DNA from: a virus
Strand: one strand, 5' to 3'
Length of the DNA: 64,000 bases
Virus record (IMG/VR): IMGVR_UViG_3300024264_001700
Location: 1 to 64,000 of that record
The notes under the pieces are model-generated. The model ran no database searches and had not been told where the DNA came from. It saw nothing but the letters and a program-made list of their open reading frames with translations. A program made the position numbers and the translations under genes. Positions 14,444 through 49,903 of the stretch are shown here, one piece after another; position 1 is the stretch's first letter; each line of letters opens with the position of its first letter.

Positions 14444-14640
14444 AAGAACAATTAGTAAAAGCAGCACGAATGCATGCCGAAGGTGAGCTAGAACGTGCAA
14501 AAACAAATATTTTGGTTTATATGAATCACAGTGTGGGCATTGGTGAACACAGTGATATTGTAGAAGCTATTCAAGAAGAACTTGATAAAATGGCTTCGGC
14601 AACTGATCGTATTGAAATGTTGAAAGAACATTTTGAATGA
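14440..14640 (+). CDS. Small helical protein of unknown function
   Basis: The 66-residue protein overlaps both neighbours at ATGA junctions. It is predicted to be helical, with acidic patches (Ile-Val-Glu-Ala-Ile-Gln-Glu-Glu-Leu). No family is recognised. Confidence 0.55.
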   Translation: MKEQLVKAARMHAEGELERAKTNILVYMNHSVGIGEHSDIVEAIQEELDKMASATDRIEMLKEHFE

Positions 14641-15383: not shown

Positions 15384-15384
15384 G

Positions 15385-15413
15385 TTGACATTAACCTAAA
15401 TACATTGTATAAT
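15385..15413 (+). promoter_or_regulatory. Consensus sigma70-type promoter for folE-queE operon
   Basis: TTGACA (15385-15390), a 17-base spacer and TATAAT (15408-15413) are perfect matches. The leader is about 40 bases with a CGGAGA site before ATG 15459. The first 18 bases equal those of the promoter at 301. Confidence 0.8.
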
Positions 15414-15458
15414 AAATTTAACTACAGGCAATCCACTGCCTTAACATCGGAGAAACAT

Positions 15459-34525: not shown

Positions 34526-34526
34526 A

Positions 34527-35225
34527 TTATTCTCCAATTTTCGTAAATATACTTAAACCAATTTTTCTTGTAATGCCAACATCGTTAAAATTACTAGCAC
34601 TATGAAGATCTAAACTGTCAAAAGAAATAATACTACCAATCTTCCAAGGAAAATAAGCATTTACACTTAATCCTTTAAGCCAGTGACTCTTTAAGTGCGA
34701 AAGATACTTCAAATGTATTTCATCTATACCTGCATTGTTTTTATTTTCTACTTCGTTGTAATTAGTTAAGAACTTATTATAATGTACAGAATATCCTGAT
34801 ACATCTTCTTCATTTACAAATTTTGCAGGACCTCCATAATAACTTTGATCAAACACAAAAAATTTTGCTTTATCACAGATGTTGCCTTCAACGTACAATG
34901 GAATTACAAATGCTTTATAACATTGTGGATAATCAAAACTATCATCATTATGTATAATATGTGGCTTTTCTACATCAAAAAAATGTGCATCACGTAAATT
35001 AAATTCTCCATATAATTGCCTTAACTTATATAGAATATTATTAATAATTCCTTCGTCTTCATCAACCTTCAATACTTTCGGACCAGTAACTTTTTCTACA
35101 ACATCGTCGCTTGTATTATAAAATTTTAACAAACTATCAATATCATCAGAAGTAACTATATCCCAATGCTGAACAGGGTTACTTTTAGTTCTTTTAATTG
35201 CTTCAATTTGTTCTAATGTACGCAT
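34527..35225 (-). CDS. 2-oxoglutarate/Fe(II) oxygenase-like protein
   Basis: The 232-residue protein has His-Ile-Ile-His92-Asn-Asp94-Asp, strands with Phe-Val-Ile-Pro-Leu-Tyr, and a late Asp-Leu-His-Ser-Ala...Thr-Arg-Lys segment that could give the distal His and Arg. The overall order fits the 2OG fold with longer loops. It starts at a TAATG overlap with the radical SAM gene at 35225. Confidence 0.6.
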   Translation of the reverse strand: MRTLEQIEAIKRTKSNPVQHWDIVTSDDIDSLLKFYNTSDDVVEKVTGPKVLKVDEDEGIINNILYKLRQLYGEFNLRDAHFFDVEKPHIIHNDDSFDYPQCYKAFVIPLYVEGNICDKAKFFVFDQSYYGGPAKFVNEEDVSGYSVHYNKFLTNYNEVENKNNAGIDEIHLKYLSHLKSHWLKGLSVNAYFPWKIGSIISFDSLDLHSASNFNDVGITRKIGLSIFTKIGE

Positions 35226-36337
35226 TAATATTTACTTTTTGGTATCTTTGAATCAGCACTTGACACACAACTTTTAGTAATACACGTTTGTGGCTCTTTA
35301 AACAAGGTAAAGCCTGTCTCTATGTTGCCTAGTGGTGTATCGTGACAACTATAACTCCTTTTGACACTACCGTCAGGCTCCCGTATTATTATTCCGCTGT
35401 AGCCAGCATTACAACGCCATCCTTCGAAATTGTTAAAATTAAAGGCATTAAAGCGTTCTGCCTGGTCCATATAGTATTTATTGCCTTCAGAATCTTTTAA
35501 TTCAACTTGCATATGCCAAGGTATACTTGTATCCAGTTTACCGTCTACTCCTTGGGGTACCTGGAACGATGGCTTTGGACGTTTGGCCCATTTGCGTTTA
35601 CTTTCTGTATAGGCTCTTTGCGGCATTCCGTTCCAGAGTTTTTTAAGGTGTTCCTCACTATACCCATCCACAACACGGGAGGCCGTTGGATCGGACTGAG
35701 GTTTAAGAGTAACATTAATTCCTTGTTCGTGGAAGAACAAGGCGTTTTCCCAGTCCCTCTCAAACCAGTCCGGAACCATAACCATATTGATCGTAACTTG
35801 AACATCATGCTCCTGGCAGAAGATTAACTTGTCTGCAAAGTCCTGCATCTTCTCTACTGTATTTAAGTGTTCTGTGTGTAAACTTGCTGTAATACTAGCA
35901 CGATGAAAAGGTTTTACACGTTCTACATAGTCTTCAAACCATCGCATATTGCGACTACAGTTTGATGTCATATGCACAGAGGTATAATTAGTGTTAGTAA
36001 CATCATCAGCCAAATGCTGCAAAATATCCAAGTATCCTGGATGAAAAGTAGGCTCGCCGCCAGACAAAGAAAAATGGAAACTATTAAAACTGTTATCACG
36101 TGCTTGCCTCTTAATTTCATCTATAGTCGCTAGACACAACTCTGTTGGTCTATGATCTTTTCTATCACTTCTTGCGTAGGGCCAACAGTAGGAGCATTTG
36201 TAGTTACAGAATCTTCCGAGCAACCAGCTGACAGTAAACAAGTCTCTATATAAGAGTGTCCGTTGTCCGACGCTAACAATGTCGTCAAACGGGATCTTTG
36301 TAAAGTCATAATTACTCCATTTCAAATCTTCATTCAT
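35225..36337 (-). CDS. Radical SAM protein with C-terminal SPASM-like cysteines
   Basis: The 370-residue protein has Cys44-Asn-Tyr-Lys-Cys48-Ser-Tyr-Cys51 and a Leu-Ser-Gly-Gly-Glu-Pro motif near 90. Several C-terminal cysteines (Arg-Cys-Asn-Ala-Gly..., Ser-Cys-His-Asp..., Thr-Cys-Ile-Thr-Lys-Ser-Cys) could hold auxiliary clusters. It is related to the protein at 37979. The ATG lies 6 bases after a -10 box, so its mRNA is probably leaderless; no other in-frame ATG precedes the cluster motif. It lies downstream of the main promoter set of the oxygenase half of the cassette. Confidence 0.85.
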   Translation of the reverse strand: MNEDLKWSNYDFTKIPFDDIVSVGQRTLLYRDLFTVSWLLGRFCNYKCSYCWPYARSDRKDHRPTELCLATIDEIKRQARDNSFNSFHFSLSGGEPTFHPGYLDILQHLADDVTNTNYTSVHMTSNCSRNMRWFEDYVERVKPFHRASITASLHTEHLNTVEKMQDFADKLIFCQEHDVQVTINMVMVPDWFERDWENALFFHEQGINVTLKPQSDPTASRVVDGYSEEHLKKLWNGMPQRAYTESKRKWAKRPKPSFQVPQGVDGKLDTSIPWHMQVELKDSEGNKYYMDQAERFNAFNFNNFEGWRCNAGYSGIIIREPDGSVKRSYSCHDTPLGNIETGFTLFKEPQTCITKSCVSSADSKIPKSKY

Positions 36338-36343
36338 ATCTTT

Positions 36344-36372
36344 ATATTAGCACCATTTTAGCATTCTGTCAA
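36344..36372 (-). promoter_or_regulatory. Sigma70-type promoter on the minus strand
   Basis: On the minus strand TTGACA (36372-36367), a 17-base spacer and TAATAT (36349-36344) lie immediately before ATG 36337. It can drive the oxygenase-rich half of the cassette. The predicted start is at or within 1-2 bases of the ATG. Confidence 0.75.
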
Positions 36373-36374
36373 GA

Positions 36375-36382
36375 TATTTATA
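36375..36382 (-). promoter_or_regulatory. T4-type late promoter motif, minus strand
   Basis: The minus strand reads TATAAATA, the exact T4 late motif, pointing toward the radical SAM gene at 36337. It lies back to back with a plus-strand late motif. Confidence 0.5.
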
Positions 36383-36385
36383 AAA

Positions 36386-36393
36386 GATAAATA
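36386..36393 (+). promoter_or_regulatory. T4-type late promoter motif, plus strand
   Basis: GATAAATA, 21 bases before ATG 36414, followed by AGGGGAGGAC as ribosome binding region. It would drive the lone plus-strand nitroreductase gene. Confidence 0.6.
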
Positions 36394-36413
36394 CATTATA
36401 GGGGAGGACTGAG

Positions 36414-37028
36414 ATGTTTGAATCACACAAAGAACTTAAAAAAGCTGTTATTAGAAGCCAACACGTACAGCGCAACTGGGACTTAACAAAAGATATTCCA
36501 GAGGACGATCTAGAGCTTTTAATTCATGCTGCTACAAATTGTCCAAGCAAACAAAATTTTGCTTTTTATAAACTTCATTTTATTACCAATAGAGAAAAAA
36601 TAGAATCTATTCATGCTCTAACAGAGGGTCTTAGAAACATGAAAGGTGAAATGAGTACTAACAGTCAAACTCTTGCAAATTTATTAGTTGTATTTGAAGA
36701 TATAGATCCTAGTCCTGAACTTATAGAAAAGTGGAAACTACGTGATCATTCAAATATGGAAACACTAAAAAGAGATCAGCAAACGGCTATCGGTGTAGCT
36801 GCTGGTTATTTGAATGTTATTGCAAGTATGCTCGGTTACGGCACAGGCTGCTGTGCTTGCTACGATTACAACGAAGTAAAAGAAAAAATAGGATTTGAAA
36901 AAGATCCATTACTTATGATGGGTATAGGATTCAAGGACGAAACACGCAATCGTAGAGAACATCATTTAACAGGCGAAATGATGGGACGTAGAGTAAAAGA
37001 GACTATTGAAGTTGTAGTAAGTAGATAA
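36414..37028 (+). CDS. Nitroreductase-family flavoprotein
   Basis: The 204-residue protein has Ala-Ala-Thr-Asn-Cys-Pro-Ser-Lys-Gln-Asn-Phe near 40-50 for FMN binding. The second half has Ala-Ile-Gly-Val-Ala-Ala-Gly-Tyr...Gly-Tyr-Gly-Thr-Gly-Cys-Cys, a typical nitroreductase pattern. These enzymes use NAD(P)H and FMN to reduce nitro groups, quinones or other acceptors, or catalyse special reactions such as dehydrogenation. It is the only plus-strand gene inside the minus-strand cassette and ends next to a convergent radical SAM gene. Reductive support for radical SAM or oxygenase chemistry is possible but unproven. Confidence 0.8.
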   Translation: MFESHKELKKAVIRSQHVQRNWDLTKDIPEDDLELLIHAATNCPSKQNFAFYKLHFITNREKIESIHALTEGLRNMKGEMSTNSQTLANLLVVFEDIDPSPELIEKWKLRDHSNMETLKRDQQTAIGVAAGYLNVIASMLGYGTGCCACYDYNEVKEKIGFEKDPLLMMGIGFKDETRNRREHHLTGEMMGRRVKETIEVVVSR

Positions 37029-37979
37029 TTATAAAGATTCTTTTATAAATTTATCTCTTTTTAATTTTTTACAAACTTGCTCACACCTTGGCAGGGGAGA
37101 GTTAGTATTCCACGAACTTATAATCTCATTCCATATGTTGCTAGATATTGCTTCGTCAATACCTACTTCATTTAGATTTATAGTATTTTTATAATCGTGA
37201 TCATTCAATAACTGTTCAAAATTATCTTTAATTATACCACTTGTATTGTATTCTAGCATTTTACTATTTAAATGACAACAAGGTATTATATTACCTGTAT
37301 GATTAATAAAAATTCTGTTCTGATCTTTATATTTACAACTTATATAAGATTCTTCTTGAACATTGTCAATCTGTTCTTGCTTAGGCGTTACAGACTTTGT
37401 ATCTTTTCTATGACTTATAATAGTTTTAAAATCTTTAAAACCTTCAGTCTTTGCTAAATCTTTTGCAGTGTCTAATTGATGTTCGTTATGTTCAAACACA
37501 ATAAACTGCCAAACAGCCTTGCCTCCAGCAGCAATAAATGCTTTATAATTTTGTTCTACTTTTTTAAAACTTGAACCTTCTCTATATACTTCGCTTAATT
37601 CATCACTGCCGTCAATCCCCCATGTCACTCTATGACTATTCGGCAATCTTTCAGCAAGCTCTGCCCACCATTTCGCAGTCCGTAAACTACCGTTAGTAGC
37701 AATATTGATATGACAGTTCCATTCTGCAAAATGATCTATTATTTCAAAGAATTGAGGATGAGTAGTAGGTTCGTCTACACTACCACAAAAATTTATTATC
37801 TTAATATTAGGAAACTGTTCTTTTTTGAATCGAGTTTTGATAGTTTCTAAATCAATATAACTTTTGTTTAAAATTTTATCTGCTTGATTAGATATAACTC
37901 TAAAACAGCCTTTGCATTGTATATTACAAAAACTAGTAAGTTCAATATCAATCCATTCTATAGTATCCATTGACCACAT
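37029..37979 (-). CDS. Radical SAM/SPASM-type protein
   Basis: The 316-residue protein has Cys18-Asn-Ile-Gln-Cys22-Lys-Gly-Cys25 near the N-terminus and late cysteines in Cys-Lys-Tyr, Pro-Cys-Cys and Cys-Glu-Gln-Val-Cys that could bind an auxiliary cluster. The usual Gly-Gly-Glu motif is replaced by Gly-Ser-Val-Asp-Glu-Pro. It shares architecture with 42863 and 43944. The ATG overlaps the upstream stop (TGATG). The reaction is unknown. Confidence 0.8.
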   Translation of the reverse strand: MWSMDTIEWIDIELTSFCNIQCKGCFRVISNQADKILNKSYIDLETIKTRFKKEQFPNIKIINFCGSVDEPTTHPQFFEIIDHFAEWNCHINIATNGSLRTAKWWAELAERLPNSHRVTWGIDGSDELSEVYREGSSFKKVEQNYKAFIAAGGKAVWQFIVFEHNEHQLDTAKDLAKTEGFKDFKTIISHRKDTKSVTPKQEQIDNVQEESYISCKYKDQNRIFINHTGNIIPCCHLNSKMLEYNTSGIIKDNFEQLLNDHDYKNTINLNEVGIDEAISSNIWNEIISSWNTNSPLPRCEQVCKKLKRDKFIKESL

Positions 37980-39208
37980 CACAAGACCTCTGTAGGATTT
38001 ATAGGAGTACCGTTCGGTTCTTGAAATTCTGCATTATCAAAAACTTTCATATCAACATGTCTTGCTAATGTAGTTTTATAATTTTCTAAATGAACACTTT
38101 TAGGCGCACATAGGCCACATCCACATGTGTGTTTAGGACACACTACTGTAGGCATAGTGCCGCTAGAAAGTTTTTCTTTCAAATCAGCAATAATTTTTTT
38201 GCCTTCACTTATTTTTCCTATAGGTCCTCTTGTCTGATCGAATTTTGCTTGGCAAGTTTGATGATGGAATACACTATCAGTTTGTTGTTCTAGATGTAAG
38301 AAGAACCAATTGACACTACAATTCCATCCTTTGAAATTTCTAAAATCTACAAATGTACCTTTACGTTCTTCGCCTTTTGCACTTAAACACATTTCTCTAC
38401 TGCCGCAACACGGTCTTCCGATAGCCCAGCCATCTTTCTTTTCTACTTTGTGTTTTTCATTTTGTGCTTCTCCTGCTGCACTAAGAGTTGCTGCAACTTC
38501 TTTTTCGTCATTTAGTTTGGCATTTTTATATTTCCAATAATTTTTCATATAGTCAAGTTGTTCGTCTGTGTATAAGTGTGAAAAATTACTTCTACTACCT
38601 GCTTCTTCACCAATTACTCTAGGAACATATGCAACACCATTTTTATGCAAGAAATCACAAAGTTCTTTACACTCATCAAAATATGCAGCATGAAACATTA
38701 CATTTACACTTACTGAACAATCATTGTCAGGACCTTGTGTATGAAATTGCATTATGCGATCACGTACTTGTTGTTTTAATTTGTCATCACTTTCAGAATG
38801 ATAACTTATAGTTGCATGTGATACATGCTTCATTACAGCAGTTGCCATCTTTTCACTCATTGCACCATTAGTAGTAAGCGCAAATCCTGCAATCCACTTA
38901 TCAGAATATTTTTCTTCATATGTCTTTTGTAAATACTGTAGGAAAGGAATAAAATTAGGATTTACAGTAGGCTCTCCTCCTGTAAAACTTATATTAGTTT
39001 CTTTATGATTTCTATGCTCCATGTATGTATCAATATACTCAAATAAGAAATCAGTATTAGCTTTTAATTCATCTAAAGTTGCATGTTTGCTAAAATTGTC
39101 ATGCCTATGTGCAGGACAGTAAGAACAATCGTAATTGCATCTTCTTCCGACATCCCATGTAACTTGAAAAACATTACCCGTAAGTAAATCTACTGTATCA
39201 AAACTCAT
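37979..39208 (-). CDS. Radical SAM protein with C-terminal cysteine cluster
   Basis: The 409-residue protein has Cys24-Asn-Tyr-Asp-Cys28-Ser-Tyr-Cys31 and Phe-Thr-Gly-Gly-Glu-Pro near 76. A long Lys/Glu-rich middle leads to several cysteine clusters, including Cys-Pro-Lys-His-Thr-Cys-Gly-Cys-Gly-Leu-Cys near the end. It resembles 35225 in the first 60 residues. It follows an AAGGA site. The C-terminal cysteine density suggests one or two extra iron-sulfur clusters. Confidence 0.85.
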   Translation of the reverse strand: MSFDTVDLLTGNVFQVTWDVGRRCNYDCSYCPAHRHDNFSKHATLDELKANTDFLFEYIDTYMEHRNHKETNISFTGGEPTVNPNFIPFLQYLQKTYEEKYSDKWIAGFALTTNGAMSEKMATAVMKHVSHATISYHSESDDKLKQQVRDRIMQFHTQGPDNDCSVSVNVMFHAAYFDECKELCDFLHKNGVAYVPRVIGEEAGSRSNFSHLYTDEQLDYMKNYWKYKNAKLNDEKEVAATLSAAGEAQNEKHKVEKKDGWAIGRPCCGSREMCLSAKGEERKGTFVDFRNFKGWNCSVNWFFLHLEQQTDSVFHHQTCQAKFDQTRGPIGKISEGKKIIADLKEKLSSGTMPTVVCPKHTCGCGLCAPKSVHLENYKTTLARHVDMKVFDNAEFQEPNGTPINPTEVL

Positions 39209-40598
39209 TAAATATATCCTTCATTTCTGGAAATGTTTCCGCAAAAGTAATTCCACGTTGTTTGTCACATAAGCCTAAAAATTCTTGCATCTCTGGCAAG
39301 CGTCTACTCCAGTCTTCACTTTCCATAAAACTAAGTATTCCGTCTAGTCTTTTTATACCATATTCAGCTTGCATAAAATCCTCTTTAGTAACTTTACCCT
39401 TGTGCCAGCTAGGAATGCCCAACTCCCAATTTTCTTCCCACCATGGATACCAGGCTTCGTATTTTGCTCTACATTCTTCTTTGAACCATTTAGGTAATAC
39501 TTTTACGTTTAAATGAGCAGGCCAATATACAAAGTGCTGACTAATGCCGCCAGCGCCAAATGGCCACATATTAATCTTCTTAAACTTTTGTTCTAATTTC
39601 CATTGTATAAAGTCTGGCAAGTAATATACATTAAGAGCTTGTACAGCAGCAGCAATAGTAACTTCTACATTATCACTTGTTTGTGTATCCAACAAATGGA
39701 ACACTTCTTCTTGTCTTGACCACTTGCTAGGATAACGAATGTAGTCGTTCATTTCTTTAATGCTATCTATCGAATAGTGGAAACGAACAAGTTTGAATTC
39801 TTTCCATAGATCGAATAAATCCGCTCTCCATTCAACTCCGTTTGAGTTATAACGCAGTTCAAGATCTTTTGCATAGCCCATTTTAATTGCATGTTCGAGT
39901 ATTTCGTAGTGTTCTTCAATAATTAAACTTTCGCCGCCGGCAAAATATATTTGCTGCATACTAGGCATTTGCTCGTAGAACTGTTTCCAAAATGTAGGAT
40001 TTTGTTTATGCCAATTATAACTACTGCCATTAGTACTGCCTTTATCTGCCCAGCCCATAATCTCTTTAAGACTTTCGTTTTTAACAGCAGGGAACATTGC
40101 TTTCCAGTCTTTGATCCATCCACTACTATCATGTGGGCTACACATTACACACGCAAGCTGGCACTTAGTACCAAACCGCAAATCAATATATGCAAGATTA
40201 GGCGGAACACTGCCATCCTCATTTGTATCTGCAAGTATTTTATCTATATCAACACGCTTGCTCCAATAATTTGTTTCCCACATACGTTTACTACGATGTC
40301 CTGCTGCCTCTTCTTTATAGCATTTTAAACAACTAGGAGGCTTTTCGCCTGCAAGCATTTGCTTACGCACATTTTTCATGTATGTGCTATTCCATGCAGT
40401 TTCAAAATCACTTACATTTAGATTGTTGGGCTTACCATCTTCAGTTTTAAGTATTCCAACTTGACCACCATGTTCTTTATCATTAGTAGGACCAACACTA
40501 CTTGCGTTTGCTGTACAGCATACACGCATACTTCCGTCTGGTCTTGTGCTTAGATGCACCCAAGGTAATAAACAAAATGTGTCTGATATATGTTTCAT
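39198..40598 (-). CDS. Radical SAM protein with N-terminal cysteine-rich twitch-like module
   Basis: The 466-residue protein begins with Phe-Cys9-Leu-Leu-Pro-Trp-Val-His, then Asp-Gly-Ser-Met-Arg-Val-Cys27-Cys and Cys90-x-x-Cys93, a set that can ligate an auxiliary cluster ahead of the barrel. The radical SAM motif is Cys146-x3-Cys150-x2-Cys153, with Phe-Ala-Gly-Gly-Glu later. NCBI calls such proteins 'twitch domain-containing radical SAM'. ATG 40598 is preferred to an upstream TTG because it directly precedes the conserved start. It is one of seven relatives in this cassette. Confidence 0.85.
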   Translation of the reverse strand: MKHISDTFCLLPWVHLSTRPDGSMRVCCTANASSVGPTNDKEHGGQVGILKTEDGKPNNLNVSDFETAWNSTYMKNVRKQMLAGEKPPSCLKCYKEEAAGHRSKRMWETNYWSKRVDIDKILADTNEDGSVPPNLAYIDLRFGTKCQLACVMCSPHDSSGWIKDWKAMFPAVKNESLKEIMGWADKGSTNGSSYNWHKQNPTFWKQFYEQMPSMQQIYFAGGESLIIEEHYEILEHAIKMGYAKDLELRYNSNGVEWRADLFDLWKEFKLVRFHYSIDSIKEMNDYIRYPSKWSRQEEVFHLLDTQTSDNVEVTIAAAVQALNVYYLPDFIQWKLEQKFKKINMWPFGAGGISQHFVYWPAHLNVKVLPKWFKEECRAKYEAWYPWWEENWELGIPSWHKGKVTKEDFMQAEYGIKRLDGILSFMESEDWSRRLPEMQEFLGLCDKQRGITFAETFPEMKDIFNEF

Positions 40599-40605
40599 AT
40601 GAATT

Positions 40606-41904
40606 CTATTCTTTTTTTCCAATTGCGTAACTATTTACTGGGCGGAGAAGGTTTGATGTATTAGATACATAACGTTCTTTATTAGGGTACATATCGTATA
40701 ATTCATCTATCATACCTTGCATGTGTGGAAATAGTCTGTCCCAATCAGTTTCTGGTCTTTTAATTTTAAAATATGAATATGCTATATCATAATCGTATGC
40801 TGTAGAATCGTTTATCTTTGTACCAATTAAATTTTGAATTTTTTCTAGGTGCGGTATTAGATAATTTAATTTATTTTTGTTACAAAAATCTATAGCTTTA
40901 TTTTGATCTTCTTTAAAATGCTCGGGCATTCCCATAATATGCATACCAGGTTCTACTGCATAATTAAATCCTTCGCCCGGTCGAAAAAACTCTTTTGTTT
41001 TTTCTAGGCCAAAATTGTCTAGATAAAATTCTATATCATCTTTAAAATATGGAGCACTATATACACTCAAAGTGTTAGCAATTCTAACATTAATATTGCT
41101 AAAATTATTATCCAAAACAAAGTTTAAATTTTTCATAGCACGTTCCCAATTTAGGCCGTGTCTAATTGCTTCAGATCTACCTTCTACAGAATCAAGGCTA
41201 ACAGTAAATCCACATTGTACGTCTTTATTATCTCTAAATAATTTAATGTATTCGTTAAAAACTTTTTCTTTGGTATTAAAATTTGTATGAAGTACAATTT
41301 CTAAATTTTTATTAGGTACAATACTAATAATTTGTTTTATTAGTTCAAGATTGTGAGGATTGTATGTGGGCTCGCCGCCGGATATTATAAAGAAATAAGG
41401 CGTATTAGGATCATACTTTTTATTTTTTAAATAGGTAATAAAATTATTAAAAGCTGCATTAAACCATTCACTGTTAGGTCTTATAGTAGGAACTCCTACT
41501 TCTTTTGCCCAACTCGAACTGTCTTTAGGTGCGCAATATACACATTTTAAATCACACGCACTGCTAAGATTGATAGTAAATCTATTAACAATATCTTCGG
41601 TTAATAATTTTTGTTTAAAATCTTCGTTTAAAAATGTATCTGTCCAATGATTTCTATTATCAAAAAAACTATGAGGTAGAAATTTAATACATCCACTACA
41701 TCCCGATTCTGGCAGCTTATTATCAAGTACCATAGATTCTCTGCGGCTTTGTAATTCAGCATTATTAAATAAAATATTAGGATCTTTAAAATCTTCTATA
41801 CTCAATCTAACTTTGTTTGCTTTGCAACAGTTCGTTATACTATTTTGTATAAATCTTAAATCCATACTTTTAAATAATTCACTGCAAATATACTGTTTGC
41901 TCAT
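40606..41904 (-). CDS. Radical SAM protein with N-terminal twitch-like module
   Basis: The 432-residue protein has N-terminal Cys7, Cys26-Cys27 and Cys69-x2-Cys72. The radical SAM motif is Cys117-Asp-Leu-Lys-Cys121-Val-Tyr-Cys124, with Ile-Ser-Gly-Gly-Glu-Pro near 171. It is more diverged at the N-terminus than the other six relatives. It overlaps the PP-loop gene at ATGA, so the two are translationally coupled. Confidence 0.85.
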   Translation of the reverse strand: MSKQYICSELFKSMDLRFIQNSITNCCKANKVRLSIEDFKDPNILFNNAELQSRRESMVLDNKLPESGCSGCIKFLPHSFFDNRNHWTDTFLNEDFKQKLLTEDIVNRFTINLSSACDLKCVYCAPKDSSSWAKEVGVPTIRPNSEWFNAAFNNFITYLKNKKYDPNTPYFFIISGGEPTYNPHNLELIKQIISIVPNKNLEIVLHTNFNTKEKVFNEYIKLFRDNKDVQCGFTVSLDSVEGRSEAIRHGLNWERAMKNLNFVLDNNFSNINVRIANTLSVYSAPYFKDDIEFYLDNFGLEKTKEFFRPGEGFNYAVEPGMHIMGMPEHFKEDQNKAIDFCNKNKLNYLIPHLEKIQNLIGTKINDSTAYDYDIAYSYFKIKRPETDWDRLFPHMQGMIDELYDMYPNKERYVSNTSNLLRPVNSYAIGKKE

Positions 41905-42866
41905 TCTATACCGGCCTTGTCTTTAGCCCAATTTCTTTCAAGGCACCAAAAACATTCGCCACATTCAGAAATATCTTTATTATTTACATAGGAATACCAT
42001 AAATGATCCATACCCAATAATTTGTAATTTGATGACGGTCCTTCGCAACTCCTAGTAGTGTTAAGTAATTCGATAATATCAAAATTCTTATATTGCTCAA
42101 TTATCCAATCTTTTTCAACTAATGTAAATGGTTCCATAACCCAATGTGCAGAATCAGTTCTTACAAAACATAATTTTTTGATAAGATAAGGTACATTGTC
42201 TCTATTAGTCATTCCACTTGTAATATCATCAGAGGAAGGATTTTTTGTAGTAGCATTAAAACATGCATAATACTTATTTTTGTATGCTATATATCTATTA
42301 AATGAAGCCACAAGGATTTGATCTGCACTACGCCCTTCTATTATATCACCTATTGTGCCGTGTTCTAATTCAGGTGGAATATATGCAGATTCTTTTTTGC
42401 CAATAATATTAGGAAATCTATTCTTTAACCATTTATAAACATTGTCTGCAATATCTTCTTGCCATGGTTTATTGTCCCAACATCTTTTGTAATTAATTAT
42501 ATCTATTGTACTGTTATAATTGTTAGATTCTATAATTGTTGCTAATATGTATGTAAGCAAAGCACTATCTGCTCCGCCGCTTAAATTAATTCCTACCCTT
42601 GACCACTCAGGATTAAATGGAATAAGCAATCCATTTATGTTATGAGTCTTTAAACCTTTTTTGTAAGAATTATCTTGCAACTGACTAAAGACTGAGCTCC
42701 TATCTTCTGTCATTTTTTCATAATCTTCGTAATGATTATCGTCACCTAACAGATTATTTTTGTAGTAATCATTTAAACTTTTTTCAAGAAATTCAAAGCA
42801 GTCAAATTCTAAGTCATTATAAGGTAACCTATTATAAAGGTCGTTTATTTTATTAAGATCGTTCAT
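41901..42866 (-). CDS. QueC/ExsB-like PP-loop ATPase with C-terminal zinc motif
   Basis: The 321-residue protein has Leu-Ser96-Gly-Gly-Ala-Asp-Ser101, the PP-loop for ATP pyrophosphate. The C-terminus has Ser-Cys274...Cys302-Gly-Glu-Cys305-Phe-Trp-Cys308-x-Glu-Arg, like the zinc site of QueC. QueC turns CDG into preQ0 with ammonia and ATP. An extra N-terminal stretch of about 95 residues precedes the loop, unlike normal QueC (about 220-230 residues). It could complete the preQ0 route begun by FolE, QueD-like and QueE far upstream, or activate a carboxylate made by cassette enzymes. Flanked and coupled by radical SAM genes. Confidence 0.7.
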   Translation of the reverse strand: MNDLNKINDLYNRLPYNDLEFDCFEFLEKSLNDYYKNNLLGDDNHYEDYEKMTEDRSSVFSQLQDNSYKKGLKTHNINGLLIPFNPEWSRVGINLSGGADSALLTYILATIIESNNYNSTIDIINYKRCWDNKPWQEDIADNVYKWLKNRFPNIIGKKESAYIPPELEHGTIGDIIEGRSADQILVASFNRYIAYKNKYYACFNATTKNPSSDDITSGMTNRDNVPYLIKKLCFVRTDSAHWVMEPFTLVEKDWIIEQYKNFDIIELLNTTRSCEGPSSNYKLLGMDHLWYSYVNNKDISECGECFWCLERNWAKDKAGIE

Positions 42867-43924
42867 TTGTTGTACTCCACTTGAATTTCGTTATGGTAAG
42901 CTTTATTTTTTGCGCAAGTTTTTATACATCTAGGTAAGTGTAAATCATTATAAGGATGCCAGCTTTCTGCTAATAGTTTTTTATACCACGGATGTTCTAA
43001 AACTTCATCTATACTTTTGTCTTTTAAGCTATTCCATCCATCGCCTTGTGTAGATAATTTTTCTAATATTTTATCTTTGTTTTCAAACGTGTTATCCCAA
43101 AGAAAGCAACAAGGCCATAAGGTTAAATCATTTGCTATAAAAATTTCGCCTTCGTGTATATATTTACAAGTAATACTATTAGTTATAGTTGAAATTTTTT
43201 CTTCATCAACTTTTGTGCGCTTATATTCTTCAATAAAATTGTCTAATTCTTTGACTACATCTACTTTACTATGTTGTTTTTTACCTGTTGTAGTAATTGT
43301 CTTTTCTGCTTGCTTATTTTTCTTACCTAATTTAACAAGCCAATCATGATAACTATTACGCATACCGGTACGAATAGCAAAATCAAAACCTAACGAGTCT
43401 GCATGTTTTCTTGCAGTTTCAAGTTCATGTTCGTTATGATCAAATACAATATATATCCACCCTGCAGATTTTTTTGCTGCTGTGTTTGCAAAAGCTTCCA
43501 TGTTGCGTTTTACAACATTCCATTTTGTATTTACACGATATATGTGATTTGTTTCTTTATGTCCATCTACACAAAAATGAACACGCAACTTACCAGGATT
43601 TTCTGCTGAAATAGATCCTAATTCTTTCCACCATTCAACAGTATTGTATCCTCCGTTTGTACTATACTCTACATAGCCGCCACAGCTAATAAGATATCTA
43701 GTCATTTCTAAACAATCAGGATTTACAATAGGGTCACCTAATACTCCGCAAAATTTGAATTCTACCCCTGAATAGTCATCAACAGGAAATAGTCTTTGCA
43801 AATCTTGCAATGAAAAACTATTTACTACTAATGTATCTATGTTTATTGTTCTAGCACAACCCGGACAAGCTGCATTACAATCACTTGTAATTTCAAGCTC
43901 GACTTTTTTTAGATCTTTTAACAT
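42863..43924 (-). CDS. Radical SAM/SPASM-type protein
   Basis: The 353-residue protein has Cys16-Asn-Ala-Ala-Cys20-Pro-Gly-Cys23 and C-terminal cysteines in Thr-Cys-Lys-Tyr, Pro-Cys-Cys and Arg-Cys-Ile-Lys-Thr-Cys. The SAM-binding Gly-Gly-Glu motif is replaced by Leu-Gly-Asp-Pro-Ile-Val. ATG 43924 is chosen over an earlier in-frame start because it begins the conserved domain and follows a TATAAATA motif after 5 bases. The stop overlaps the PP-loop start. Confidence 0.8.
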   Translation of the reverse strand: MLKDLKKVELEITSDCNAACPGCARTINIDTLVVNSFSLQDLQRLFPVDDYSGVEFKFCGVLGDPIVNPDCLEMTRYLISCGGYVEYSTNGGYNTVEWWKELGSISAENPGKLRVHFCVDGHKETNHIYRVNTKWNVVKRNMEAFANTAAKKSAGWIYIVFDHNEHELETARKHADSLGFDFAIRTGMRNSYHDWLVKLGKKNKQAEKTITTTGKKQHSKVDVVKELDNFIEEYKRTKVDEEKISTITNSITCKYIHEGEIFIANDLTLWPCCFLWDNTFENKDKILEKLSTQGDGWNSLKDKSIDEVLEHPWYKKLLAESWHPYNDLHLPRCIKTCAKNKAYHNEIQVEYNK

Positions 43925-43929
43925 TAAAA

Positions 43930-43937
43930 TATTTATA
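43930..43937 (-). promoter_or_regulatory. T4-type late promoter motif, minus strand
   Basis: TATAAATA on the minus strand ends 5 bases before ATG 43924, in the short gap after the upstream gene. If active, the transcript would start at or near the start codon. In AT-rich DNA a chance match is possible. Confidence 0.4.
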
Positions 43938-43943
43938 ACACCA

Positions 43944-45023
43944 TTATTTAAACTGTTCGGAAAATGGATCAAACTCAACACCGCACTTCATTGAGCAAAC
44001 TTTTAATTTTCCGTTATCACAATTTTTTGTTTTCCAGCTGCGTTCTATGTTGTCAAATATACCTGTTTCAAATACAGCCTTTAATCCGTGCGTTTTAGCA
44101 TTGATTGCATCCTTGCCTCCTACAGCATCGATAAAGTCCCATACTTGTTCTTGCTTAGGATCTTTGTGCCACCATTTGTACATACGTCCAGCAGTCCAAC
44201 AACAAGGCATAGCAAGTCCTTCTGCTGTAATAAACAAACTACCTTCATCCTTTACTTTACAGTTGATAGGCACTACATCGTAATATGCATCCATACTACC
44301 ATATTTTTCAAGTAACATATCTTGTTTTGTTAATGCTTTGTTTTGATATTTTGCATCTGGTTTTTTAAGTTCTGTAGTTTCTTTACCTTTACGATCTTTA
44401 GCTTGATGTGATTCTTTCTTTTTGCTATTTGCTGTAATAAATCTACCTGTCTTCTTAGGTATAAATCTTTCACACCCCCATTTCTCAGCAAGTGCTTCAG
44501 CTTCTTCTACTTGATGTTGATTATGTTCAAATATTAAAAAGTCCCAACGTGCTCTGCCGCCGGCATCTATAAACGCCCGCATGTTACGCTCTACATTGTC
44601 CCAGTTTACGCCTTGTCGATAAAGATGATTAGTATCACGCAACCCGTCTACACTGAATATAACTGCGCCTTTGTTATTAATAACATGAGCAAGCTCTGAC
44701 CACCATTCAACACTCTTTGCTCCGGCGTTGGTATTCATACTTAACCACATTGTAGGATTATGTAGTCTAAAGTATTTGAATATATCAAGTGTGTCTCTTG
44801 CAACAATAGGATCGCCTAAGTTACCACACATATACATAGTACCTAACTGTTTTATAAATTCAGGCTCAAATATACGTTTGCAATCTTCTAGTGTAAGCTC
44901 ACTAAGATCGATATGAGGATTTAGTCCTTCGCCACTCATATTACGATCACACATAGGACAGTTGGCTTGACAATTCTGTGTGTTTTCTAAATGAATTGTT
45001 TTTATATCATAATAACTATACAT
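43944..45023 (-). CDS. Radical SAM/SPASM-type protein
   Basis: The 359-residue protein has Cys18-Gln-Ala-Asn-Cys22-Pro-Met-Cys25, and later Cys-Lys-Val-Lys, Pro-Cys-Cys-Trp and Val-Cys-Ser-Met-Lys-Cys cysteines. Gly-Asn-Leu-Gly-Asp-Pro-Ile-Val stands in place of Gly-Gly-Glu. A basic insertion (about 200-240) is rich in Lys. It is a sister of 42863. It overlaps the kinase-like gene by 8 bases. Confidence 0.8.
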   Translation of the reverse strand: MYSYYDIKTIHLENTQNCQANCPMCDRNMSGEGLNPHIDLSELTLEDCKRIFEPEFIKQLGTMYMCGNLGDPIVARDTLDIFKYFRLHNPTMWLSMNTNAGAKSVEWWSELAHVINNKGAVIFSVDGLRDTNHLYRQGVNWDNVERNMRAFIDAGGRARWDFLIFEHNQHQVEEAEALAEKWGCERFIPKKTGRFITANSKKKESHQAKDRKGKETTELKKPDAKYQNKALTKQDMLLEKYGSMDAYYDVVPINCKVKDEGSLFITAEGLAMPCCWTAGRMYKWWHKDPKQEQVWDFIDAVGGKDAINAKTHGLKAVFETGIFDNIERSWKTKNCDNGKLKVCSMKCGVEFDPFSEQFK

Positions 45024-45534
45024 GATCTAACCTTGAATAATATGTTTGTAAATTTGACATTAGATTTATTTGTGCCATGTAGTATTTTTCTGTGTATTCT
45101 AAATTATTAACAAATACATACGATTCAGGATCAATTATTCGAACTTTTCCATCTGTTGTTAAAACCATATTTGCTAATTGTAAGTCACAATTTACAAAAA
45201 ATTTATTATCTTCTAATTTCTTTGATGCTTCTATTGCTTGACTCCAACTATCATTAACTGTTGTAATAATATCGCAAATTACATTTTTGTTTATTAAATG
45301 ATAATATTCTTTTCGTTTTAATATGTTTTCAATATTATTAACAATATCTAATCTTTCCATAGTATATGTTTCGTGATCAACTAATTCAAAAACCTTTACA
45401 AGTGCAGGATTAATATCTGATAATTGTTTATAGTGTAAAATCCATTGCTCACCGATTTCTTGCCATTCGATATTTCTAACTTTTTTAATTACTATATCAT
45501 CTTTAAATGTTATAACTGATTGTTCTTCTATCAT
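45016..45534 (-). CDS. Kinase-like phosphotransferase (APH/choline-kinase type fold)
   Basis: The 172-residue protein has Asn-Cys-Asp117-Leu-Gln-Leu-Ala-Asn122-Met, then Gly-Lys-Val-Arg-Ile-Ile-Asp135-Pro-Glu, which matches the catalytic Asp, Asn and metal-binding Asp of the aminoglycoside-phosphotransferase fold. The N-lobe is very short and the protein half the usual length, with no clear ATP-binding Lys-loop. It could phosphorylate a sugar, lipid head group or peptide, or be a degenerate pseudo-kinase. Confidence 0.55.
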   Translation of the reverse strand: MIEEQSVITFKDDIVIKKVRNIEWQEIGEQWILHYKQLSDINPALVKVFELVDHETYTMERLDIVNNIENILKRKEYYHLINKNVICDIITTVNDSWSQAIEASKKLEDNKFFVNCDLQLANMVLTTDGKVRIIDPESYVFVNNLEYTEKYYMAQINLMSNLQTYYSRLDHV

Positions 45535-45755
45535 TCTGCTAATACCAATTTTATATCTTTGCCAGGCCCTACTTTACTAGGCAAATCTCCATATTGGGTT
45601 ATATACCATTCTATTACAGCACAATACCAATTTTGACTGTTATGGTGTGCTAGTTTATTAAACTGATGTATATTATTATTTGTTGCTTCCATAGTACTTA
45701 ATGCTCTTGCGCTTTCTATTTGCAATTCTCTAAGTGACAATTTTTCTAAATTCAT
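45531..45755 (-). CDS. Small protein of unknown function in the radical SAM cluster
   Basis: The 74-residue protein has ATGA overlaps on both sides. The N-terminus is helical (Leu-Arg-Glu-Leu-Gln-Ile-Glu-Ser-Ala) and the middle has Tyr-Cys-Ala-Val-Ile-Glu-Trp-Tyr-Ile. One cysteine is present. No clear leader/core layout marks it as a modified-peptide precursor, but as the only very small ORF in the cassette it deserves a check. Confidence 0.5.
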   Translation of the reverse strand: MNLEKLSLRELQIESARALSTMEATNNNIHQFNKLAHHNSQNWYCAVIEWYITQYGDLPSKVGPGKDIKLVLAE

Positions 45756-46612
45756 TTTAAATACTCTATCATTTCTTTGTCAAGATAAATCATATCTTTT
45801 AAATTTTCTAATTGATCCTCAAATATTTTTAAATCTTTTAAATTATCATTATACAACTGTCTAGCAACTTTTTTATTATTTTTTACTATTATAACATCGA
45901 TCGATGTATTAATCAATCTAATTATCTCGTTAATATACAAATCAAATCTATTATCAACATTTTCATCAAAACTTAAATCACAATCAAAGGTAAATCCGTA
46001 CTCTATTAATTTTTTGTACATACCCGGATAACCGTAATTAAGAAAAGGTTTTCCACTTAATAATGGTCTAAATGTTTTTTCTGATATAAACAAATACGGA
46101 ACACCTGATATACTACATGTTTCTATTTGGAATTCATACAAACTACGATACCATTCTTTTGGCAGTGTTTTTTTAACATGATAGTGAGAAGTAACATCTT
46201 TCTCAGAAGGCAAAGATATATTTGGCCACAAACTATATACGCCCTGATTTAGCACCTCAGCAGATTTTAACCTAGATATTAATTTAGATCTAGTTGTACT
46301 AGCTGCTCCATTCATTGTTATGAATTTATAAGAGTTATTAGGAACATAATCTACTAAAGGACGTCCGTACATCCAAAACAAAGGAAAATTAATTATATTA
46401 TCCGATGCAGCAGATATACTTGAACAGTATATTTTAGAATTATTAATTACCGAAGAATTAATATTATGTCGCACAGTTAATTCTTCTAATGGTTCTGCTG
46501 AAATATCTATATAATTGTTTATTTCAAAAAACCTATCAAATAAATCTTGCCTATCTATAAACTTTTTATGTATGCAACAACTATGTAAATTAAGCTCACG
46601 TAGTGTTTTCAT
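45752..46612 (-). CDS. Glycosyltransferase-like protein
   Basis: The 286-residue protein has Leu-Phe-Ile-Ser-Glu-Lys-Thr-Phe-Arg-Pro-Leu-Leu-Ser-Gly-Lys-Pro-Phe, a pattern seen in fucosyltransferase- and exostosin-like GT-B enzymes where it binds the nucleotide sugar. The N-terminal part has cysteines and many Asn residues. The acceptor is unknown. It overlaps the downstream gene at ATGA and the upstream oxygenase gene by 17 bases. Confidence 0.5.
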   Translation of the reverse strand: MKTLRELNLHSCCIHKKFIDRQDLFDRFFEINNYIDISAEPLEELTVRHNINSSVINNSKIYCSSISAASDNIINFPLFWMYGRPLVDYVPNNSYKFITMNGAASTTRSKLISRLKSAEVLNQGVYSLWPNISLPSEKDVTSHYHVKKTLPKEWYRSLYEFQIETCSISGVPYLFISEKTFRPLLSGKPFLNYGYPGMYKKLIEYGFTFDCDLSFDENVDNRFDLYINEIIRLINTSIDVIIVKNNKKVARQLYNDNLKDLKIFEDQLENLKDMIYLDKEMIEYLK

Positions 46613-47141
46613 TTAAAAATCCTGATACTTGTAAAGTATATTTGTTATTCATTCCAGCATTTGCACTTAAATGCAAATGATTACTATCCCAAACAAATCC
46701 CTGGTTTGCTTTCCAGTGTGTGCTACTATGCCAATCGTTGTTTATTTGATATTGTAAAAAATGTCCAACTTTCCAGTCTTCTAAATAAATGTTTGCACGT
46801 ACTTTGCGTCTAGTATCATTTGGAAACCTTTTGTTAATTTGAAAAAAAGTATCTCTATGTATAGGTATACTATTACCAGGTGGTTGTAATATAGTACTTA
46901 CCGTTACAACTTCCATCCGTAATTGATTTCCTAAATCTTTAAAATCAACTTGTTTTTCGTTCCACCAAAGTTGCCGTATCAAAGTATTACCGATATCATA
47001 GCTATCTGGAAATCCGCCATAGCTTTCATGTAAATCTTTAAGCTCATGTACTTGATGAGATATACAACTACCACTATGTACATTATAATCTGCACTGAGA
47101 AAAATATCAGTATTATAGTCAAGTGTTATTTCGTAAATCAT
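46596..47141 (-). CDS. AspH-like 2-oxoglutarate oxygenase in the radical SAM half
   Basis: The 181-residue protein has Pro-Pro-Gly-Asn-Ser-Ile-Pro-Ile-His95-Arg-Asp97, then Phe-Val-Trp-Asp-Ser-Asn-His-Leu-His with the distal histidine (155 or 157). It is the only oxygenase in the radical SAM half of the cassette; the other ten lie at 26698-35225. Its start lies 2 bases after the methyltransferase stop. Confidence 0.7.
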   Translation of the reverse strand: MIYEITLDYNTDIFLSADYNVHSGSCISHQVHELKDLHESYGGFPDSYDIGNTLIRQLWWNEKQVDFKDLGNQLRMEVVTVSTILQPPGNSIPIHRDTFFQINKRFPNDTRRKVRANIYLEDWKVGHFLQYQINNDWHSSTHWKANQGFVWDSNHLHLSANAGMNNKYTLQVSGFLNENTT

Positions 47142-47143
47142 TT

Positions 47144-47989
47144 TTACTTATATCCAATTTTCATAAACCTTGAGTATTTTTCTAATTGTAATTCTCCTAG
47201 ATAAAGACAATTATTCATAGGTATAGATAAACTAAATTCCTCAGCATCTTTTGCACAATTTACATGTTCTTCTACTTCATAATAGTTATTGCTTTGTAAC
47301 ACCACTAATTTACCATTTGGAATTTTTGCATACCAGTTGGCAAAGTGTTCTATATGCTCGCAACTGGTATTAATAACTGTATCAGGAGAATCTGTAATAG
47401 GATAACTCATTCTATTATTTTTGTTAGACCAATACTGCCATGTATGTTCATTATAATTTATATCTTGTATATCTTCTACTAATGCTTTAAATTTCCATTG
47501 ATTTGCAAACCAAGGTTTATTGAAGGTCTCGGCTATATCAACAGTTGTCTCGTCAATGTCAAAACTACGAATTTTATCTACCTTAATACCGCTTTCAAAT
47601 ATCATAGTAGCAAGAGTACCATACCATCCTGCACACAAAAATACTGTACCAAGTTCTACATCTATTTTTTTTAATTGTTCAATTAACCATAGTTTGCTTT
47701 GTAATTGCCCTCTACTAAAACAATCATTGTCAATATCAATATGATTTACAAAAAAACTTTTAAAAGCTGCAATAAATTGGGTATCAATTTGTTCATTTAA
47801 TAACAGCCATAACTTCCAAGTATTATCTTCCATTATTAATTTGCGTAAATCTTCTTTGTTTTTGTCAGTAACTAAACGTAATATACTAGACAAATCTTTA
47901 TCAATATAAGATCTACGTAAGTCTGCAAGCTTACTTTTAGTAGGATACATTAATTCAAATCTATCTAATAACTCAAATGTTTGTAGCAT
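47144..47989 (-). CDS. Class I SAM-dependent methyltransferase-like protein
   Basis: The 281-residue protein has a helical N-terminal domain and a Rossmann-type half: Val-Phe-Leu-Cys-Ala-Gly-Trp-Tyr-Gly-Thr-Leu (116-126) as a variant motif I, Ser-Phe-Asp144-Ile-Asp as motif II, and Val-Ile-Asn-Thr-Ser-Cys-Glu-His as a motif-IV equivalent. ATG 47989 follows GGAG at proper spacing and is preferred to ATG 48019. The substrate is unknown. Confidence 0.65.
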   Translation of the reverse strand: MLQTFELLDRFELMYPTKSKLADLRRSYIDKDLSSILRLVTDKNKEDLRKLIMEDNTWKLWLLLNEQIDTQFIAAFKSFFVNHIDIDNDCFSRGQLQSKLWLIEQLKKIDVELGTVFLCAGWYGTLATMIFESGIKVDKIRSFDIDETTVDIAETFNKPWFANQWKFKALVEDIQDINYNEHTWQYWSNKNNRMSYPITDSPDTVINTSCEHIEHFANWYAKIPNGKLVVLQSNNYYEVEEHVNCAKDAEEFSLSIPMNNCLYLGELQLEKYSRFMKIGYK

Positions 47990-48656
47990 CAAACTGCTCC
48001 TGCAACCAATCAAAGTCATTTATTCTACGCAAGTCATCAGGCGATTGTGAGTGTTTTTCACCGTATTTTGTGCCTTGAATAGCACCCTGGATAGCATACT
48101 CTCCAAAGTCTCTATCAGAGCCTACCGTAGTCCAAATTTTAAGTCTTTCATTTGTTTCGTCATCTTTTTGTCTATCAATTACTTTTGCACTTAATTTAGC
48201 ACACTCTCTAAAAGCACTTTTCCATGTTTCAAAAGGTGATATATTATATTGTGTAATATTAGATATCTCAGGCATTGGTTTAAACTTATCTGTAATACTA
48301 GTTGTCATATCAGGCTTACTGGTATCCATGTCAATTGTTGCCTGACGTGGAAATAATTTTATGCCACCGTACCCATACACAAGATCATTAATAGGATTTT
48401 GACTTCTCCATACATGCACATGATCTAACTGATGCTCCGGGACTTCATAATTAAAATCAAAATCATCTACAATTCTTGCATCTGCATCTACAATCCAAAA
48501 CATTTTTGTAAAGCATTTTTTAGCCGCGGCAATATGTGCTTGATGTATTCCTTTTACACCATGCACACGCTTTGCAGTTGGAAAATCTTCTTTTAATCTT
48601 TTCCAGTTCTGTTCAGCATTAATTTCTTTATAACTTATATAAACTATATCATACAT
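47973..48656 (-). CDS. GT-A-like glycosyltransferase-family protein
   Basis: The 227-residue protein starts Asp-Ile-Val-Tyr-Ile-Ser-Tyr and has Ile-Val-Asp-Ala-Asp-Ala, a DxD-type metal/nucleotide-sugar site near 55-59. It is a clear relative of the protein at 54888 (shared Tyr-x-Glu-x-Asn-Ala-Glu-x-Asn start and Lys-Arg-Val-His-Gly-Val). The start codon lies 5 bases after a -10 box and has no ribosome binding site. A sugar-transfer role is inferred from the DxD motif and neighbours. Confidence 0.6.
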   Translation of the reverse strand: MYDIVYISYKEINAEQNWKRLKEDFPTAKRVHGVKGIHQAHIAAAKKCFTKMFWIVDADARIVDDFDFNYEVPEHQLDHVHVWRSQNPINDLVYGYGGIKLFPRQATIDMDTSKPDMTTSITDKFKPMPEISNITQYNISPFETWKSAFRECAKLSAKVIDRQKDDETNERLKIWTTVGSDRDFGEYAIQGAIQGTKYGEKHSQSPDDLRRINDFDWLQEQFDATNI

Positions 48657-48661
48657 ACTTT

Positions 48662-48690
48662 ATTATACTTTATTTTTTATTGTTTGTCAA
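48662..48690 (-). promoter_or_regulatory. Consensus sigma70-type promoter on the minus strand
   Basis: TTGACA (48690-48685), a 17-base spacer and TATAAT (48667-48662) are perfect. The -35 lies in the last codons of the upstream radical SAM gene, and the -10 ends 5 bases before ATG 48656. It can re-initiate transcription within the cassette. Confidence 0.75.
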
Positions 48691-49903
48691 GATATAACCA
48701 CGGTAGGTATTTTTTTGTATCTTGTTTTCTATAATTGTCTTGTTTTTCAACATGAGCTTTAAACTGTTCTATCTCCATTTTAGGTTTTGTAGTTTCCATT
48801 AAATTAATACATGCAATGAGTTGGTTATAAAGATATGTGTTTCGATCATTTTTCATTTTATCTGCATGTTTAAGTATTTGATTCTTAAGTTTTTGTTTAT
48901 GTTTCTTTCTTAATATACTTGTACAAGAATGCGACGGACTATATGGCCAAATAAAATACGGAATAGTTCTAAAATTCTCTATATGCGAAAACTGATTAAA
49001 GTATTTTAATATATCTACAAATCCATGAATTCCGTAAGTTTGAAATACAGTGTGTATTTCAACTTCATAAGTAGGATGATTTTCAATCAATTCTATTAAC
49101 TTCCTAAAGTTCCTATCAACAACACTCCATTTGCCTGGATACCTTACATATTCGTATAAATCTCCTACAGCATCTATACTTATATGCATACGTACCATTT
49201 TAAATTTAGACAATCTGTCAAAAAATTTCTTAGGCATAATAGTTAAATTTGTATGAAACGTAAATATAATATTTTTGCTTAAATCATTATTATGTAAGTA
49301 ATCGCAAAATTCTAAAAAATCATTGTTTAGTAAAGGTTCGCCGCCTGTTACTAGTAATTCTGTAACAGTAGCCGATATTTTATCTAATGTTATTTTTAAA
49401 TTTTTGTAAGACCATTTATTATTATCAAGAGGCTCAAAAAATTTATACAAATCATTGTATTCTGTTTCAAGCTGATTTGATGCCCAAGGACCGCACATTT
49501 TACATTGTAGATTGCATTTATTGCTCCAAGACAAATCTAGACTTTCTACTGATAAATTAATAATTTCTCCAGTTTCTAAATCTGTATTATCAGTAAATTT
49601 TTCAACTTCAAAAGATTGCAAAACACCATTACGAACACTTGTTCCATTTTTATCTTCTATAGAATAACATGCACTACATATATTAGGCCTATCTCCATTT
49701 AACATTTGTTTGCGTATATTTTTATAAAAATCTTGATTAAAATAATCTTTAATATTTTTTATTTCATCGATGTATATAGGATTACCGTCTGAATCTAGTA
49801 TATCACCACTAGTACTAGTATTACAACAGATTCTCATTCTGCCGTCAGTATGTGTGCTAAAATGTGTCCAGGGATATGGACAAATAACATCTTTAGAATT
49901 CAT
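48677..49903 (-). CDS. Radical SAM protein with N-terminal twitch-like module
   Basis: The 408-residue protein has N-terminal Cys8-Pro-Tyr-Pro-Trp, Arg-Ile-Cys26-Cys27 and Cys76-x2-Cys79. The radical SAM motif is Cys130-Asn-Leu-Gln-Cys134-Lys-Met-Cys137, with Val-Thr-Gly-Gly-Glu-Pro later and a conserved Tyr-Val-Arg-Tyr-Pro segment. It overlaps the upstream relative at ATGA. It is the last of a tandem run of five such genes (54888 to 48677). Confidence 0.87.
   Translation of the reverse strand: MNSKDVICPYPWTHFSTHTDGRMRICCNTSTSGDILDSDGNPIYIDEIKNIKDYFNQDFYKNIRKQMLNGDRPNICSACYSIEDKNGTSVRNGVLQSFEVEKFTDNTDLETGEIINLSVESLDLSWSNKCNLQCKMCGPWASNQLETEYNDLYKFFEPLDNNKWSYKNLKITLDKISATVTELLVTGGEPLLNNDFLEFCDYLHNNDLSKNIIFTFHTNLTIMPKKFFDRLSKFKMVRMHISIDAVGDLYEYVRYPGKWSVVDRNFRKLIELIENHPTYEVEIHTVFQTYGIHGFVDILKYFNQFSHIENFRTIPYFIWPYSPSHSCTSILRKKHKQKLKNQILKHADKMKNDRNTYLYNQLIACINLMETTKPKMEIEQFKAHVEKQDNYRKQDTKKYLPWLYLDKQ

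Follow-up and report, generated by a model that had tools for sequence, protein, structure and literature searches.

Does the QueC-like protein encoded within a radical SAM (rSAM) operon of this virus supply the missing preQ0 step for 7-deazaguanine genes carried elsewhere in the same DNA, or does it adenylate a carboxylate made inside the rSAM cassette itself? The original prediction put forward both ideas. The stretch that was analysed, here called the window, is the first 64,000 nucleotides (1-64000) of a virus record of 85,585 bp; its DNA polymerase most resembles those of jumbo phages, among them Phosso, Atu_ph07, and 121Q. The protein, P0001, and its relevant parts are encoded as follows (window coordinates):

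41901..42866, minus strand: P0001, QueC-like PP-loop protein of 321 aa, an ORF with an ATG start
42627..42866, minus strand: N-terminal extension, residues 1-80, with a low-confidence helical model and lineage-specific
42564..42581, minus strand: PP-loop SGGADS, residues 96-101, kept in 65/66 relatives
42459..42485, minus strand: family motif RxWxxRPWQ (RCWDNKPWQ in the window, residues 128-136), which replaces YxQxHxxE of QueC
42201..42242, minus strand: NP...R segment, residues 209-222, which replaces the YPDCR substrate loop of QueC
42042..42047, minus strand: C274-E275, the first Zn ligand followed by a Glu that, as in Cap9, occupies the QueC Y189 position
41943..41963, minus strand: CxxCxxC, the other Zn ligands, present in 66/66 relatives

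P0001 is under purifying selection, with a dN/dS of 0.13 overall, 0.09 in the core, and 0.24 in residues 1-80 relative to the 87%-identical orthologue in L002. The PP-loop and the four cysteines near the C-terminus (C274, C302, C305, and C308), both recognised from the window alone, proved to be family traits: the loop is kept in 65 and the cysteines in all of the 66 non-redundant relatives, conservation that, in these alignments, is far above chance. The predicted 95-residue extension ahead of SGGADS fared less uniformly, as it is genuine coding sequence but its length is lineage-specific, many relatives having only ~14-25 residues before the loop. In the AF2 model of P0001, the core is confident, while residues 1-80 have pLDDT values mostly <55 and residues 1-67 are modelled mostly with low confidence.

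The gene lies in a minus-strand cassette of ~20 kb (35225-54888) that contains twelve rSAM genes. Class A accounts for two of them, class B for three, and class C, which is the N-Twitch type (NF033640), for seven. The members of the cassette referred to below are:

42863..43981, minus strand: class B rSAM (B2), ATGA-coupled upstream of P0001; weak Radical_SAM match (1.6e-4) and phrog_21308 match (3e-15)
43944..45023, minus strand: class B rSAM (B3), of which the class B counterpart is fused to a PP domain in L005
40606..41904, minus strand: class C rSAM (C2, N-terminal Twitch type), ATGA-coupled downstream of P0001; N_Twi_rSAM match (2e-42, sub-cutoff)
39198..40622, minus strand: class C rSAM (C1); N_Twi_rSAM match (1.4e-126)
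37979..39208, minus strand: class A rSAM (A2); weak viperin/MoaA-like matches
37029..37982, minus strand: rSAM/SPASM of class B (B1)
35225..36337, minus strand: class A rSAM (A1)
48677-49903, 49900-51309, 51233-52492, 52485-53606, and 53599-54888, minus strand: five further class C rSAM genes
47144..48019, minus strand: methyltransferase-like (MT) gene with N-terminal tandem repeats; no family match
47973..48656, minus strand: GT-A-like gene (GT1); model pLDDT 91, weak GT-A matches

Overlaps of 4 bp (ATGA) were confirmed at both ends of P0001, with the upstream rSAM gene at 42863-43981 and with the downstream one at 40606-41904. Among the five further class C genes, the one at 48677 matches N_Twi_rSAM (1e-90), and the other four were assigned by homology to it. 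The fold search with GT1 gave only a weak GT-A signal and is therefore not used as strong evidence; GT1 relatives in L177, L194, L215, and L230 have tandem GT-like domains and are 440-850 aa long. The MT gene has 22-25-aa tandem repeats of variable copy number ahead of a methyltransferase-like domain, with ~2 degenerate units in the window versus ~11 in L209 (L209:2352-3863; DEELRKAVVEQNLHSIFRLLP). Judging from their sequence, the repeats could be a solenoid or a multi-core peptide substrate. TauD, Asp/Asn-hydroxylase, desaturase-like, and nitroreductase genes adjoin the rSAM cassette at 26698-36337 (minus strand) and 36414-37028 (plus strand), and these gene types also flank rSAM genes in the cultured Pelagibacter phage Mosig (L353).

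Relatives of P0001 (the PP family) were collected by scanning viral contigs with P0001, which gave 53 loci, 51 of them with a recognised PP protein, and with the neighbouring rSAMs A2 and B3, which gave many more (406 stretches for B3 alone). A family profile identified 108 distinct PP proteins in cassettes, 66 of which are non-redundant at 85% identity. In the 51-locus PP-found set, which is free of bias from the rSAM queries, a class C rSAM is the next same-strand gene downstream of PP in 50 loci, and a class A rSAM is the second gene after PP in 39 of 49. An rSAM gene also directly follows 89 of the 108 distinct PP proteins, a set into which the rSAM queries bring some bias. Of the 23 loci with full flanks, every one has all three rSAM classes within 9 kb, and 22 have the MT gene. 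Fusions also occur, L005 joining PP to a class B rSAM and L115 and L118 joining it to a class C rSAM, and some loci have two to four PP paralogues. In some cassettes with the same rSAMs, a PP gene is absent within 8 kb; PP is therefore a frequent module rather than a universal or obligatory one. Two paralogues, at L030:1314-2054 and L126:5732-6619, have altered PP-loops (SCGADS and SSGADS) and are possibly changed or inactive, and a 95-aa ORF that resembles a PP gene with its middle deleted adjoins an intact PP gene in L132 (4346-4630) and L216 (14102-14386).

The family is essentially virus-only and is carried by a group of uncultivated aquatic phages. None of 50,697 phage records in INPHARED matched P0001, one paralogue, or the L066 relative, and a single remote relative (24% identity) was found among GTDB contigs, on the marine MAG contig L066 (NHBR02000105.1). 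This contig, binned as Muricauda sp. TMED12, has tail genes of phage type along with a divergent cassette of PP and rSAM genes in the order MT-C-B-PP, and from its gene content it is probably a phage contig within a Muricauda MAG.

Used alone, P0001 gave only sub-threshold family matches, and a direct sequence search of the PDB returned nothing convincing. Of 23 aligned members, 20 gave weak PF06508 matches (best E 1.2e-4), P0001 not among them, and the C-terminal half aligns with QueC in a profile-to-profile comparison (E 1.2e-4). The best whole-chain PDB matches found with Foldseek were Cap9 (9nto, TMt 0.66) and Bacillus subtilis QueC (3bl5, TMt 0.62), with E ~2e-6. On the strength of the predicted structure, P0001 is a QueC/Cap9-fold protein and a member of the QueC (PF06508) superfamily; these matches, the PP-loop, and the Zn ligands uphold the predicted QueC likeness at the superfamily level.

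The substrate-site residues were compared in the 66 non-redundant PP members, using Escherichia coli QueC numbering. SGGxDS, P159, K165, and the four cysteines are kept, the K165-equivalent (the lysine of PF...K) in 65-66 of 66, and R135 is retained in 51. In contrast, Y35, R99, Y131, and C134 of QueC occur in none of the members, and the QueC motifs YxQxHxxE, VPxRN, and YPDC are not found in the family. Y35 is replaced by Arg in 52/66, Q37 by Trp in 49/66, and E42 by Gln in 44/66; Y189 is Glu in 61/66 and Tyr in none. An Asp equivalent to D133 is present in four members, and the column equivalent to Y131 has no Tyr. The spacing between the first and second cysteines exceeds the C(x)8C of canonical QueC, most members having C(x)20CxxCxxC. 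In E. coli QueC, the Y35A, R99A, Y131A, and Y189A variants are inactive, and Y189 is essential for preQ0 (PMC13329287). Seven phage and archaeal-virus QueCs examined as controls keep most of the QueC signature, some at ~26% identity to E. coli QueC, and simple divergence of a viral QueC therefore does not explain its loss from the PP family.

In a maximum-likelihood tree, from which a WbpG-like row was left out because of its extreme branch, all 47 PP representatives group in a single clade (100/99) separate from QueC, and a topology with P0001 inside QueC was rejected (AU p ~1e-22). The PP family is thus not a QueC orthologue, and its substrate site is remodelled, probably away from CDG; the Arg/Trp/Arg motif would suit an acceptor that is charged and not a nucleobase. 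The original prediction was to be refuted by clear placement in a non-QueC PP-loop family with no CDG pocket: no such pocket is seen, judged on sequence, and the family is non-QueC, but this does not extend to the superfamily level.

The reading favoured, tentatively and with a little less than even confidence, is that P0001 is a re-specified viral QueC relative that adenylates a cassette-made carboxylate to give an amide, with a sugar or peptide product. Of the two original ideas, it is thus carboxylate activation inside the cassette that is preferred, and the integration of P0001 into the rSAM operon is supported. P0001 keeps the ATP pyrophosphatase engine (SGGADS and the PF...K lysine) and the Zn knuckle of QueC and Cap9, and would adenylate a carboxylate on an intermediate made within the cassette. 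The activated carboxylate would then be joined to an amine, either ammonia or the amine of another cassette substrate, so that the reaction would equal the QueC/Cap9 half-reaction without the nitrile-forming second step. The adjacent class C (N-Twitch), class B (SPASM-type), and class A rSAMs may make the substrate or tailor it further, different PP paralogues may serve different substrates, and the product, probably a modified sugar or peptide, would serve to alter the host surface or the virion.

The fold, the sequence motifs, the separate clade, the rSAM coupling with its fusions, and the purifying selection are shown by the data above; we infer the adenylation, the amide product, the substrate class, and the biological role as follows. 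An acyl-adenylate and an amide are suggested by the half-reaction common to QueC and Cap9 and by the replacement of the preQ0 Tyr with a Cap9-type Glu, while neighbouring glycosyltransferase-like, methyltransferase-like, and (in relatives) nucleotide-sugar genes make a modified sugar or peptide the probable product. Related cassettes have UGD-, epimerase-, and GT-like genes, which, with the weak GT-A fold of GT1 and the gene content of cultured phages, suggest a sugar context in particular. For instance, Pelagibacter phage Mosig has rSAM genes together with nitroreductase, Asp hydroxylase, desaturase, carbamoyltransferase, and amino-sugar aminotransferase genes, and Vibrio phage K566, as read from its sequences, has N-Twitch-type rSAMs together with glycosyltransferase-like genes; the searches made found no PP gene in these two cultured rSAM-island phages. 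No glutaminase partner for P0001 was noticed, which counts against this reading, although QueC also uses free ammonia.

A rather unlikely alternative is that P0001 is a protein modifier of the Cap9/QatC kind, which would activate a carboxylate, either CDG or one made in the cassette, and attach it to proteins or peptides at the N-terminus or an amine. Cap9 is the best whole-chain structural match, and the PP family shares its CE motif. SPASM-type rSAMs often act on peptides, and the variable tandem repeats of the neighbouring MT gene could be a peptide substrate. Additionally, the C(x)20CxxCxxC of most members resembles the C(x)19CxxCxxC of QatC (PMC13279940, PMC13329287). However, the Tyr/Asp pair assigned to base recognition in Cap9 (PMC13279940) is missing from the family, and no member matches a QatC or Cap9 model. 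An MGGS or MGTS N-terminus was found on no PP, rSAM (A, B, or C), MT, or GT1 cassette protein, with one match among 2337 other frames, and a search for a conserved small precursor ORF beside the PP gene found none.

The remaining original idea, that P0001 carries out the missing QueC step (CDG to ADG or preQ0) with a remodelled pocket, concerns a separate block of the window:

9058-17631, plus strand: DpdA-like/QueD-like/FolE/QueE-like block, without QueC

FolE is recognised here by PF01227 (1.7e-38) and the QueE-like gene by sub-cutoff NCBIfam matches, while the DpdA/TGT-like and QueD-like genes were assigned from motifs only, as no family model matched. Among 22 long cassette contigs, 15 have a DpdA-like gene, 16 FolE, and 19 the PP family, which is present in all 16 FolE-positive contigs; these records are related fragments, and the PP/FolE/DpdA-like association is therefore only co-occurrence at the level of a lineage. 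No canonical QueC exceeded the cut-off in any of the 22 records, four of which are 236-275 kb long. Two over-cut-off QueC matches in the first 14 records are divergent PP paralogues (SGGADS and SCGADS). The presence of PP in all FolE-positive records and the absence of QueC keep a link with CDG alive without demonstrating it. Sampling from the DpdA-like side gave PP in four of five records >115 kb, but one 180-kb DpdA-like contig is without the family, and no PP or QueC gene was found up to 10 kb from the DpdA-like gene at any of 80 loci (L261-L340), 71 of which have a QueD-like gene.

Together with the QueC signature absent from all 66 members, the placement outside the QueC clade, up to four PP paralogues per locus, and fusions of PP to other rSAMs, this separation from the DpdA-like block argues against canonical preQ0 synthesis by P0001. 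A preQ0 synthase would not be expected in several paralogous copies within one phage. Supply of preQ0 by P0001 is therefore unlikely, and the QueC-step explanation as a whole is improbable. DpdA-like blocks without QueC are widespread in aquatic phages (at least 600 DpdA-like stretches, with DpdA and QueD identified by motif only), and DNA containing 7-carboxy-7-deazaguanine in such phages is a plausible prediction. For Mycobacterium phage Bipper, a published DpdA phage without QueC, it was suggested that the phage may carry the substrate of QueC itself (PMC6884629). The DpdA-like alignments of G005, G165, G168, G170, G174, and G175 span in-frame TGA (some TAA) codons, probably because the genes are truncated or extended to different degrees at their 3' ends.

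Least probable is that P0001 acts like the PP-loop enzymes NcsA, TtuA, TilS, and LarE, as a sulfur transferase or a nucleotide-modifying enzyme, and modifies (e.g., thiolates) a cassette product or tRNA. Such a reaction is possible because these folds also match the model: NcsA is top in Foldseek by E-value (1.6e-6), followed by TtuA, TilS, and LarE, and TilS_N is matched weakly by 23/23 members. However, the cysteines form a QueC-type C...CxxCxxC Zn knuckle at the QueC position and not a three-Cys cluster site, and Cap9 and QueC cover the whole chain better (TMt 0.62-0.66) than NcsA does (0.38-0.40).

Returning to carboxylate activation within the cassette, a wider and distinctly doubtful proposal is that aquatic jumbo-type phages have an undescribed system in which QueC-like ligases, paired or fused with rSAM enzymes, make amide-linked decorations. 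In one version, offered on the basis that FolE, QueD, and QueE are present and QueC is absent, phage-made CDG would serve as acyl donor to a peptide, sugar, or virion component and not as a source of preQ0.

Phage rSAM cassettes themselves have already been noted: rSAM gene cassettes occur in the host-recognition cluster of pelagimyophages, next to tail-fibre and glycosyltransferase genes (PMC7029224), and 12 rSAM genes are present in an environmental T4-like genome (PMC5332604). The passages describing these regions mention no QueC-like partner and propose no cassette chemistry, and a description of such a partner was not found in the open-access literature, a search that largely left subscription journals and preprints uncovered. 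The PP family is a new family in a new context for QueC-superfamily chemistry, and offers a testable route to the products of the large rSAM clusters in aquatic phages. It shares with canonical QueC the SGGxDS PP-loop, the Rossmann-like fold, K165, R135, and the four-Cys Zn knuckle, but differs in lacking YxQxHxxE, VPxRN, YPDC, and Y189, in its separate clade, and in its rSAM-operon context and multiple paralogues; 'queC' calls in viromes therefore need a check of YPDC and Y189. WbpG-type N-acetyl-sugar amidotransferases (PF06508 cluster 5) place a PP-loop ATPase in a glycan pathway, but only the PP-loop aligns and the Cys motif differs. QatC of qatABCD also has a QueC core, a remodelled substrate site, and a long spacing from the first to the second Cys, but no PP member matches NF041925 (E up to 0.1) and no candidate partner with an MGTS N-terminus is seen. 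Cap9, which acts in N-terminal deazaguanylation in type IV CBASS, is the closest in whole-chain structure, and its Glu after the first Zn Cys is shared by 61/66 members; in Cap9 itself, this Glu lies within a CE(x)6C motif and an amide is formed. However, Cap9 keeps its 7-deazaguanine-binding Tyr/Asp and has a CD-NTase partner with an MGGS N-terminus, neither of which is found here. QueC relatives have recently been tied to the modification of proteins in two anti-phage systems, a role demonstrated for Cap9 and proposed for QatC, whereas here the QueC scaffold belongs to phages, in which it has multiplied and is physically coupled to rSAMs in a widespread but unstudied viral cassette.
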